From assembly GCF_014852005.1 (NCBI RefSeq), contig NZ_JACVAU010000002.1:930001-994000 (forward strand): 64,000 nucleotides of DNA, given 5' to 3'. The DNA is from Pseudoxanthomonas sp. PXM03. Its GTDB lineage: Bacteria > Pseudomonadota > Gammaproteobacteria > Xanthomonadales > Xanthomonadaceae. A program made the position numbers and the translations under genes. Shown here piece by piece: positions 35,905 to 56,298 of the stretch. The notes below the pieces were generated by a model. The model saw nothing but the letters and a program-made list of their open reading frames with translations. It did not search any database and had not been told where the DNA came from. Numbering within the stretch: position 1 is the first letter of the stretch; each line of letters begins with the position of its first letter.

Positions 35905-36801
35905 ATGCGCGTCCTGATCACCGGCGGTACCGGCTTCATCGGCCAGGCCCTCTGCGCCCGCCTGCTGCAGGCCGGCCACACCGTCAGCGTGCTGACGCGC
36001 AACCCTGCCCGCGCCCGCGCGCAGCTGCCGGGCGTGGACACGCTCGCCACGCTGGAGGAGGCCAGCGGAGTGGAAGCGGTCGTGAACCTGGCCGGGGAGC
36101 CGCTCATGGCCGGGCGATGGAACGCGGAGCGCAAGGCGGCATTCCGGGCTTCGCGCATCGGTACCACGCAGGCGCTGATCGCGTGGATGGCGCGCCAGGC
36201 CGCGCGCCCGCGCGTGCTGGTATCCGGCTCGGCGATCGGCTACTACGGCCCGCGCGACGACGTGGCGCTGGACGAATCCGCCGCCCCCGGCGACGACTTC
36301 GCTGCACGCCTGTGCCTGGACTGGGAAACCGAAGCGATGCAGGCCGAAAGCCTGGATGTCCGCACCTGCCGCGTGCGGACCGGCATCGTGCTGGGCAACG
36401 AGGGCGGGGCACTGGCGAAGATGCTGCCCCCGTTCCGCATGGGAGTGGGCGGACCGATGGGCGATGGCCGGCAATGGATGAGCTGGATCCATCGCGACGA
36501 CCTGGTCAGCCTGGTCCAATGGCTGCTGGAACGCGATCAGGCCGGCGGCGCCTACAACGGCACCGCACCCGCGCCGGTGACCAACCGCGACTTCGCACGC
36601 GCGCTGGGCAAGGCCCTGCATCGCCCCGCCGTACTGCCCACGCCGGCCTTCGCGCTGACCCTCGGCTTCGGTGAAATGGCCCAGCTTCTGCTCACCGGCC
36701 AACGCGTGCTGCCCGCGCATGCACTGGCAGAGGGGTTCACGTTCCGCTTTCCCACGCTGGAGACGGCGCTTGAGGATCTGCTGCGGAGCCCGGCGAGGTG
36801 A
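35905..36801 (+). CDS. TIGR01777-family epimerase-like protein (YfcH)
   Basis: 298 residues, an extended-SDR fold. The NAD(P) motif GGTGFIG is at 7-13; VVNLAGEPLM, the SGSAIGYYG segment carrying the catalytic Tyr, and a C-terminal DUF1731-type tail (QRVLPAHALAEGFTFRFPTLETAL) define the YfcH/SulA family. The biological substrate is not known. It is divergent from the alpha/beta-hydrolase and is followed by the 42-bp repeat array. Confidence 0.92.
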   Translation: MRVLITGGTGFIGQALCARLLQAGHTVSVLTRNPARARAQLPGVDTLATLEEASGVEAVVNLAGEPLMAGRWNAERKAAFRASRIGTTQALIAWMARQAARPRVLVSGSAIGYYGPRDDVALDESAAPGDDFAARLCLDWETEAMQAESLDVRTCRVRTGIVLGNEGGALAKMLPPFRMGVGGPMGDGRQWMSWIHRDDLVSLVQWLLERDQAGGAYNGTAPAPVTNRDFARALGKALHRPAVLPTPAFALTLGFGEMAQLLLTGQRVLPAHALAEGFTFRFPTLETALEDLLRSPAR

Positions 36802-37379
36802 CCGCCGCCGCCCGCGGGACGTTTTGCCTGAGCCACCCGCCCATGTGTGAGTGGAACGAGGCTTTTCGCCTCGTGCGCCAGCCCGGATGAGAGAAGCGCC
36901 AGGCTTTTCGGCTGCCGCGTCAGGCTATGTGTGAGTAGAGAGAGGCTGTTCGGCTGACGCGTCAGGCTTGATGAGAGAGGAACGAGGCTTTTCGCCTCGT
37001 GCGTCAGCCCGGATGAGAGAAGCGCCAGGCTTTTTGGCTGTCGCGTCAGGCTATGTGTGAGTAGAGAGAGGCTGTTCGGCTGGCACGCCAGGCTTGATGA
37101 GAGAAGAACGAGGCTTTTCGCTTCATGCGTCAGCCCGAGTGAGGGCAGCGCCAGGCTTTTTTGCTCGCGCGCTAGCCTTGGCGGGAGAAGCGCCGGCCTT
37201 CTCCACGGACACGCCAGGTCATCGGTGACGCGAGTCCGGTTTCCGGATGCCCACGGCGAGCGCAGCGTGAATGTCGCGTGCCCCCATGGCGGCAGCGATC
37301 ACGACGATCTTCATCGCCTGCCGACGGAGGCGTAACGTCCGCGCACTTAGGGTCGGGACGTTCCTTCCAGGAGTGCGTC
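36802..37379. other. Intergenic region carrying the tandem-repeat array
   Basis: This 578-bp gap has no confident gene. The first 42 bp and the last 158 bp are unique; the middle holds the nine-unit array described separately. A frame of 92 codons opens at a GTG at 37057 and runs through the last three and a half units into unique DNA, but it has no ribosome site and is not called as a gene. The downstream SDR has its own AGGAG site. Confidence 0.7.
36844..37221. repeat. 42-bp tandem repeat array, nine units with 126-bp super-period
   Basis: Nine consecutive 42-bp units start at 36844, 36886, 36928, 36970, 37012, 37054, 37096, 37138 and 37180. Units alternate in three types, so units 1-3, 4-6 and 7-9 form 126-bp blocks (1=4=7, 2=5=8, 3=6). 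A core AGGCTTTTCGGCT is shared; units 1 and 4 contain a perfect GAGGC-TTTTC-GCCTC hairpin. Units 8 and 9 are degenerate. Because 42 is a multiple of three, one plus-strand frame reads a 14-residue repeat through all units, broken by a single TGA at 36955. Confidence 0.95.
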
Positions 37380-38243
37380 ATGCCCACCAAGAAGCGCGTC
37401 AACCGTCCGCAGACCCAGCGCCGCCAGCCCGGCCGCCAACCACGGATGCAGCCCGAACCCGAAACCATCCGCCCCGGCTACCGCGGCAGCGGCCGGCTGG
37501 AGGGCAAGGTGGCGCTGGTGACCGGTGGCGACAGCGGCATCGGACGGGCGGTGGCGGTGCATTTCGCGCACGAGGGTGCCGATGTCGCGATTGCCTACCT
37601 GGAAGAAGATCGCGATGCACGGGAAACGCAGCGCTTGATCGAGGCCACGGGGCGGCGCGCCCTGGTAGTGCGTGGCGACCTGGCCACGCCGGCCCGCTGC
37701 CGCCGCGTGGTCGCGCGTACGGTGAAGCAGTTCGGTGCGCTGGACGTGCTGGTCAACAACCACGCGCAGCAGTACCCCGTGGATGCGCCGGAAGACCTGA
37801 CGCCCGAGCGCCTTCGGCATACCTTCGAGACCAACCTGTTCTCGTTCTTCCATTTGGTCGACGCCGCGCTGGAACACCTGCCGGAAAAGACCGGCTGCAT
37901 CATCAACACCGGCTCGGTGACCGGCGTTCGCGGCCACGACACGTTGCTGGACTATGCCGCGACCAAGGGCGCGATCCATGCGATGACGTTCTCGCTGGCC
38001 AAGTCGCTGGCGGACCGGGGTATCCGCGTCAACGCGGTCGCACCGGGCCCTATCTGGACGCCGCTGATCCCGGCCTCGTTCACCCGCAAGCAGGTAGCGG
38101 AGTTCGGCTCGGACACGCTGATGAAGCGCCCCGGTCAGCCGTCGGAAGTCGCACCGGCGTATGTATTCCTGGCCAGCGAGGATGCGCGCTACATCACCGG
38201 CCAGCTGATCCACATCAACGGGGGCGGGCATATCTCGGCGTGA
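37380..38243 (+). CDS. SDR-family oxidoreductase (YghA-like)
   Basis: 287 residues from the ATG at 37380, with AGGAG seven bases upstream. A basic, Gln- and Pro-rich N-terminal tail (about 1-38) precedes the SDR domain, as in YghA and the Bacillus stress protein GSP39. TGGDSGIG is the cofactor site; NNHAQQ replaces the usual NNAG; catalytic residues are Ser in NTGSVTG and YAATKGA with Tyr and Lys. It is probably NAD(P)-dependent with an aldehyde or alcohol substrate. The 42-bp array ends 158 bp before it. Confidence 0.92.
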   Translation: MPTKKRVNRPQTQRRQPGRQPRMQPEPETIRPGYRGSGRLEGKVALVTGGDSGIGRAVAVHFAHEGADVAIAYLEEDRDARETQRLIEATGRRALVVRGDLATPARCRRVVARTVKQFGALDVLVNNHAQQYPVDAPEDLTPERLRHTFETNLFSFFHLVDAALEHLPEKTGCIINTGSVTGVRGHDTLLDYAATKGAIHAMTFSLAKSLADRGIRVNAVAPGPIWTPLIPASFTRKQVAEFGSDTLMKRPGQPSEVAPAYVFLASEDARYITGQLIHINGGGHISA

Positions 38244-38294
38244 GCCGAGGCACGGCATACTGAGAATGCCGCCCCGGTGTCCTCGTCCTCGTCC

Positions 38295-38768
38295 ATGCCG
38301 ACGCTTCGCCCCTACCGTCCCGACGACGCGTCCACGCTGGCCGATCTGTACGCCAGATCCGTCATGCACTACGGCCCGCGCGCCTACACCGCGGCGCAGG
38401 TGTCCGCATGGGCGGCGACGGCGACGGTCGAGGGGACCGCAGCCCGTTGCACCGACGGGCGCCACGTGCTGGTCGCGCAGGATGCCGACGGATCGGTGCT
38501 GGGCTTCGGCGACATGCAAGACGATGGGCACCTCGACTTCCTCTACGTCGCACCGGAGGGCGAAGGCATGCGCGTGGGTTCGCTGCTGTACGCCGCGCTG
38601 GAGACGCATGCGCTGCACTTGCACGTGCCGCGCATCTTCGTGGAAGCCAGCGAGCTGTCGCGGCCGCTGTTCGAGCGCCGCGGCTTCCAGATGCTGGGCC
38701 GCAACGATCTGTCGCTCGGCGGCGTGACCATCCACAACTACCGGATGGAGAAGCGGTTGCCGGCGTGA
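38295..38768 (+). CDS. GNAT-family N-acetyltransferase
   Basis: 157 residues. The acetyl-CoA fold is visible: LRPYRPDDASTLADLYARSV at the start, DFLYVAPEGEGMRVGSLLYAAL containing the R/Q-x-x-G-x-G/A-like segment (here MRVGSL), and FVEASELSRPLFERRGFQML. The layout is that of YafP-type acetyltransferases. The ATG at 38295 is used; a GTG six codons upstream also opens the frame. It follows the SDR by about 50 bp. The acceptor is unknown. Confidence 0.87.
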   Translation: MPTLRPYRPDDASTLADLYARSVMHYGPRAYTAAQVSAWAATATVEGTAARCTDGRHVLVAQDADGSVLGFGDMQDDGHLDFLYVAPEGEGMRVGSLLYAALETHALHLHVPRIFVEASELSRPLFERRGFQMLGRNDLSLGGVTIHNYRMEKRLPA

Positions 38769-56256: not shown

Positions 56257-56298
56257 CGCTGTCCGCTGTCCGCTGTCCGCTGTCCGCTATCCGCCGTC
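56257..56298. repeat. Heptanucleotide tandem repeat
   Basis: Four perfect CGCTGTC units (56257-56284) are followed by CGCTATC and CGCCGTC, six 7-bp units in all. They lie 50-91 bp upstream of the MFS gene on its strand, and about 16 bp past the stop of the neighbouring minus-strand gene. Confidence 0.95.

Follow-up and report, generated by a model that had tools for sequence, protein, structure and literature searches.

The MIRU-VNTR loci of mycobacteria consist of one repeat family that forms tandem arrays of variable copy number at several intergenic loci, and CRISPR arrays are built of regular palindromic repeats with unique spacers. REP elements and BIMEs are intergenic palindromes that form mosaic clusters of varying length with alternating arms and are often adjoined by RAYT genes. 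The parts of Nunvar 2010 (PMC2817692) that deal with REP/BIME elements and RAYTs in Stenotrophomonas, Xanthomonas and E. coli describe BIMEs with preserved palindromes and complementary changes, place RAYT genes next to BIME clusters in a third of cases, and cite the binding of gyrase to BIME-2. Small extragenic palindromes are sorted by GTAG or CGTC tags in the pertinent sections of Di Nocera 2013 (PMC3733652), where some repeats are species-specific and some are reiterated in tandem; in its main text, Xanthomon and Pseudoxanthomonas have zero occurrences. Searches of the open-licence literature on Pseudoxanthomonas or Xanthomonadaceae repeats and on helical-turn mosaics gave no title or abstract opening that describes the arrays considered here, and the window, the whole 64-kb stretch of DNA that was analysed, contains no Rfam match at gathering score. 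The family of 21-base modular arrays to which the array in this window belongs is real and centred on Pseudoxanthomonas. Its members are most like BIMEs and depart from that class in three features: the tag, the high copy number and the cognate RAYT flank.

The array (36841..37221, minus strand), resolved by unit comparison, TRF and a 21-bp grid, lies behind the stop of a yfcH-type gene (35905..36801, plus strand; Pfam Epimerase and DUF1731). It precedes an SDR-family gene (37380..38243, plus strand; Pfam adh_short_C2), read from the ATG at 37380, and a GNAT-family gene (38277..38768, plus strand; Pfam Acetyltransf_10). An earlier note on this DNA had described nine units of 42 bp in the interval between yfcH and the SDR gene, and nine 42-bp steps are indeed found at 36844-37221. 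The order ABC ABC ABC proposed there for the units holds for units 1-6 and for unit 7, which is of type A, and breaks down at the third C unit. Block 1 (units 1-3, 36844..36969) and block 2 (units 4-6, 36970..37095), both of 126 bp on the minus strand, each carry types A, B and C in that order, and block 3 (37096..37221, minus strand) is composed of an A unit, a weak B unit and a decayed ninth unit that is not C. A-type units are identical at 37/42 (units 1-4), 39/42 (units 4-7) and 34/42 positions (units 1-7), the B-type units 2 and 5 at 40/42, and the C-type units 3 and 6 at 39/42, compared with 25-32/42 between types among units 1-7. Unit 8 matches unit 5 at 31/42 and unit 2 at 30/42 positions, while unit 9 comes closest to B, with 28/42 identity to unit 2 as against 23-24/42 to the C type. 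The best-scoring TRF period is 126 bp (2.5 copies, 92% matches, score 529), and beneath the 42-bp and 126-bp periods lies a basic period of 21 bp, the length of two helix turns. Both perfect hairpins that had been claimed are present, with the sequence ACGAGGC-TTTTC-GCCTCGT, in unit 1 (36856..36874) and unit 4 (36982..37000). On the yfcH side, a decayed extra palindrome module, GCGGGTGGCTCAGGCAAAACG (36820..36840, minus strand), recognised by eye on the grid, continues the same 21-bp register. Elsewhere in the window, at 56257-56298, the 7-base repeat CGCTGTC occurs in six copies.

On the minus strand of the array, G-poor linker modules alternate with modules that combine a palindrome and an A-rich linker. 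Modules on the 21-base grid open with a short arm (e.g. CCT, GGT or ACT), and AAG closes most of them. In the palindrome module, 14 bases form a palindrome centred on CG and seven more an A-rich linker, as in CCTGACGCGTCAGG, GGTGTCGCGACACC and ACTGGCGCGCCAGT, and the second kind of module holds a G-poor stretch (TTCTCTCACTAAG, TACTCACACATAG or AACACACACTAAG). Strict linker motifs are present in 27 of 32 array regions, and the 117 such motifs keep a single phase modulo 21 within each of the 27 arrays; all but one of these (26) contribute at least two motifs to this count. None was found on the opposite strand in the 27 arrays. The register count leaves out five array regions that have no strict linker motifs (L042, L143, L133, L141 and L048), as well as the array L149, which was found later. 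Modules are contiguous on the grid, with no unique spacers between them; a CRISPR array is thereby ruled out. In many arrays, the 5' end of the linker strand appears by eye to be CTCTACTCACACA or a near variant, which differs from the inner linkers and gives the impression of a fixed array end. Palindromes of the GTAGGGCGGGCTCAAGCCCGCC type, which are ordinary and REP-like, or near variants of them abut the arrays at L032, L142, L139 and L047.

With REP/BIME elements, these arrays share imperfect palindromes kept through complementary changes, with the exception of palindrome pair 4-11, which shows no excess, and regularly spaced palindromes with alternating arms. The tag, in contrast, is missing: among 198 non-linker modules, GTAG occurs in the six bases before two and, on the other strand, after one, and CGTC stands beside none of the 198. 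Nor do the arrays reach the high, scattered copy number of REP/BIME elements, as there are about four loci per genome, and the RAYTs that adjoin them carry other, GTAG-tagged palindromes instead of cognate ones. Unlike REP/BIME elements, the arrays are also built on a 21-bp module with a linker common to different loci. The repeats with GTAG or CGTC tags, as presented in the sections of Di Nocera 2013 (PMC3733652) mentioned above, resemble them as small extragenic palindromes that are partly tandem, whereas the arrays have no regular tag. From MIRU-VNTR loci they differ in that their modules are palindromic, 21 bp long and kept to one register, and copy number was here compared between species only. 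Our preferred reading, which we hold tentatively and with less than even confidence, is that the array is a tagless, BIME-like, length-variable hairpin tract that would work at the level of DNA structure.

A search for the unit elsewhere, suggested in the earlier note, revealed four array loci in the genome that contains the window (G000) and related arrays in other species. BLAST against 61 genomes (this one, 36 of the same genus and 24 of the same order) gave matches in eight, all of the same genus. A sequence profile built from 34 units (E cut-off 0.01, with rough E-values) matched 12 of 38 Pseudoxanthomonas genomes. The own genome has four array loci and each of the other matching genomes one to four, to which a fifth is added in G028. 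The membership of G027 is based on one weak match (E 0.007), and the profile matches in G023 and G061 are weak as well, with loci that lie on the 21-base grid. Among 297 genomes of the family, seven matched, six within the genus and one borderline case outside it (E 9.9e-4), and a sample of the order (299 genomes) gave no match at 1e-4 other than the own genome; both samples were searched with stricter filters and held part of the genus only. An exact 24-base pattern was found in four stretches among 84,980 species genomes, all of them in Pseudoxanthomonas. That scan missed G014, G021 and G028, whose arrays hold the pattern, which implies that the collection or the pattern overlooks some arrays. 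No array copies were detected in plasmids, phages or viral contigs at the sensitivity used, the viral scan being one for the exact pattern. Within the genomes searched, the arrays are thus almost confined to Pseudoxanthomonas.

Comparison of the flanks of the 32 array regions yielded about four shared neighbourhoods and a few single ones, with the arrays mostly in the same orientation. The four neighbourhoods are those of yfcH, of a DJ-1/PfpI-family gene (Pfam), and of the own-genome positions C3:1612 kb and C4:290 kb. Arrays behind yfcH are found in eight genomes (G000, G001, G014, G019, G021, G022, G028 and G030), and apparent remnants were noted by eye in G029 and G013. By eye, none was found behind this gene in G005, G016, G020, G023, G027 and G061, the more distant yfcH loci having been inspected only where sequence right of the gene was displayed. 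The palindrome type at yfcH is GGT in G001, G021 and G022 and CCT in G000, G014 and G030, and at the DJ-1-family locus it is GGT in G000 and CCT in G014 and G030. These differences at shared loci indicate that the position of an array is kept while its module type changes. A frozen binding site for one regulator is not favoured, as palindrome sequences differ between and within the arrays of one genome.

Behind yfcH, the present array measures 378 bp, compared with about 609 bp in G014 and 84 bp in G030; in these three close species, the lengths correspond to 9, about 14.5 and 2 units of 42 bp. Between species, the earlier suggestion of a mutable minisatellite is therefore borne out. The 294 bp by which the present array exceeds that of G030 equal 14 x 21 bp, and both array ends are retained in G030; slippage or recombination between modules may account for such length changes in 21-bp steps. 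Differences in length between close species also agree with a neutral minisatellite, in which hairpin-prone DNA would slip in replication without serving any function. Slippage that copies whole modules would keep the period, a constant period being the outcome of plain tandem duplication too, and correction of mismatched arms from each other would keep the palindromes. This explanation is nearly as likely as a structural array.

Gene content in the DJ-1-family neighbourhood (L033, L036, L041, L037, L044, L138 and L141) varies between species, and altered junctions there hold an array while the PF00144-family or the DJ-1-family gene is missing. The PF00144-family gene beside the array at the DJ-1 locus is absent in G014 and G030. 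Recombination between arrays may have caused such losses of neighbouring genes, but the SDR gene behind yfcH is, by eye, also absent in three genomes that have no array there (G016, G020 and G023).

The pairing of palindrome arms was assessed in 159 non-linker modules (126 distinct, from 25 arrays) that lie between linker modules and were drawn from linker-bounded stretches without selection for palindromes. Arms pair at 4.34 of 7 positions, a value reached in 0 of 2000 shuffles of the 3' arms among modules, which give 3.06 (sd 0.135). Restricted to one module per array, the comparison is 4.39 observed to 3.08 shuffled, and pairing falls to 1.0-2.5 when the 3' arm is shifted by one or two bases. 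The excess is seen at six of the seven palindrome pairs, pair 4-11 showing none (0.39 vs 0.44 shuffled), and opposite kinds of pair occur at several positions; pair 5-10, for example, comprises 31 T-A, 29 A-T and 6 G-C. The hairpin-rich character of the possibly regulatory tract proposed in the earlier note is upheld by these covarying palindrome arms. Three arm pairs to the next module also exceed shuffled values (0.60-0.69 vs 0.37-0.53); an A-loop hairpin between modules was rejected, such an excess being expected from any repeat with a dyad. Over 15 overlapping comparisons of orthologs, a pair is lost or gained in 97 cells, and in 3 cells both sides switch to a new pair. These counts speak against a strong constraint on the palindrome, and the predominance of one-sided pair decay over compensated change is in keeping with the neutral minisatellite.

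The G-poor linker, on the other hand, is an argument against neutrality. Across six ortholog pairs, its positions 7-21 changed in 36 of 510 cases, compared with 137 of 1065 for the rest of the modules (p 5e-4), counts that include 3 of 75 module positions where the linker occurs in one species only. Its substitution is thus about half that of the remaining module positions, although the calling of linker modules by likeness to four linker versions biases this ratio somewhat toward linker conservation. The G-poor linker is also found again from locus to locus and from species to species. Whole arrays of close species, in turn, diverge about as fast as their well-aligned flanks, as the neutral explanation would predict. 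In 13 overlapping ortholog comparisons, the array gaps are two of 21, one of 1 plus 20 and, where a pair aligns poorly, one of 1, whereas the flanks contain several off-register gaps. This deficit of indels in the arrays is suggestive only and weighs little against neutrality, as some flanks are coding and some are unaligned.

If the arrays act through DNA structure, as we tentatively prefer, the dyads, spaced by two helix turns, would all lie on one face of the helix, where a dimeric DNA-binding protein or a topoisomerase could bind in series along the array. The G-poor linker would most likely be read by its sequence and the palindrome by its shape. Any effect would probably stay local, acting on supercoiling or on the boundary between adjacent genes, and would involve no protein product.

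The frame on the plus strand to which the earlier note had drawn attention contains a single stop in the array, a TGA in unit 3, with TGG at the matching place in unit 6, as described there. Its further suggestion of a decayed repeat protein did not survive comparison: this frame has 43 stops over 27 arrays, 15 of which have none. The check for a bias toward synonymous changes between units gave 9 synonymous and 25 non-synonymous codon changes in seven pairs. The most open frame lies on the opposite strand and runs without a stop through 17 of 27 arrays and through the present one, and substitutions modulo 3 are slightly uneven (71, 58 and 44; p 0.04), with the highest count at the third position of that frame. 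Against these signs of coding, the most open frame has stops in 10 of 27 arrays, the other five frames have 43 to 205 stops in total, and in the window no ATG, GTG or TTG occurs in the most open frame from the upstream stop through the array. Protein coding is rejected, as no frame is open in all arrays, no start codon is available here and non-synonymous changes outnumber synonymous ones. A repeat protein, whether intact or decayed, is therefore highly improbable.

An RNA element, in which the array would be transcribed as the 3' end of its neighbour and its hairpins would stabilise or end the transcript, is improbable as well, though less so than a protein. The position of the present array behind yfcH would suit such a role, and its plus strand folds more stably than shuffled sequences (z -2.57, with 1 of 100 as stable), the minus strand giving z -1.35 (9 of 100). 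The mismatches point the other way: 71 mismatch cells are G-T and 58 are A-C, both below their shuffled means of 77.2 and 76.0, and this similarity implies no clear wobble preference and hence no sign of a preference for RNA. Array orientation relative to the preceding gene also varies by eye, being opposite to yfcH and the same as that of the DJ-1-family gene.

The arrays may have been founded or spread with the help of RAYT transposases, or RAYTs may simply settle beside them. PF01797 occurs in 35 of the 38 Pseudoxanthomonas genomes, which makes its presence alone uninformative. The 12 array-bearing genomes contain 28 PF01797 matches, seven of which belong to a YFFTV(N/T)L-like group defined by pattern and without a tree. 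Six of these seven lie within 2 kb of an array, compared with 0 of 21 other RAYTs (Fisher 1.9e-5), and the chance expectation is about 0.09, a rough estimate from round numbers. The adjoining copies are two in G019 and one each in G021, G022, G028 and G029, the copy in G027 being the one that does not adjoin. The six cases are not fully independent, the yfcH locus being common to G019 and G022, and a preference for long intergenic regions may simply be common to RAYTs and arrays. Every one of the six array-adjoining RAYTs is flanked by its own GTAG-tagged hairpins, which fall into at least four sequence kinds; by the usual rule, none of the six RAYTs is therefore cognate to the arrays. A founding role of the RAYTs is weakened by this result, which also slightly lowered our confidence in the structural reading and slightly raised it in the neutral one. 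No array modules occur near the three RAYTs of the own genome, and no linker-motif chain lies near the YFFTV(N/T)L-like RAYTs of the array-free genomes G002, G016, G020 and G032. The group is absent among the PF01797 matches of the array-bearing genomes G000, G001, G014, G023 and G030, and also from G061 as far as the interrupted match L167 can be judged. Arrays thus persist without it in at least five genomes, and the association between RAYTs and arrays is spatial and not causal.

It is conceivable, though rather doubtful, that these arrays form a separate mosaic class. Such a class would be a tagless BIME with a unit set by helix pitch, in which covarying palindromes on one face of the DNA stand between linkers read by sequence. 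Its arrays would have stayed at the same gene borders as the clade evolved while their palindromes were exchanged, and would be sought by one group of RAYTs. If the structural reading holds, two helix turns would provide a simple geometric rule for BIME-type elements, and natural arrays that occupy the same loci with differing palindromes and lengths would allow the roles of spacing, palindrome and linker to be separated. The arrays may also serve as length-variable typing markers for Pseudoxanthomonas, if strains differ as species do. In the own genome, at L031 (G000:C5 near 424917), repeated TAACAATTCATTCAAGCCGA...GTTAGGC sites were noticed by eye between small genes; they resemble attC sites, and the locus has the appearance of a chromosomal integron cassette array.
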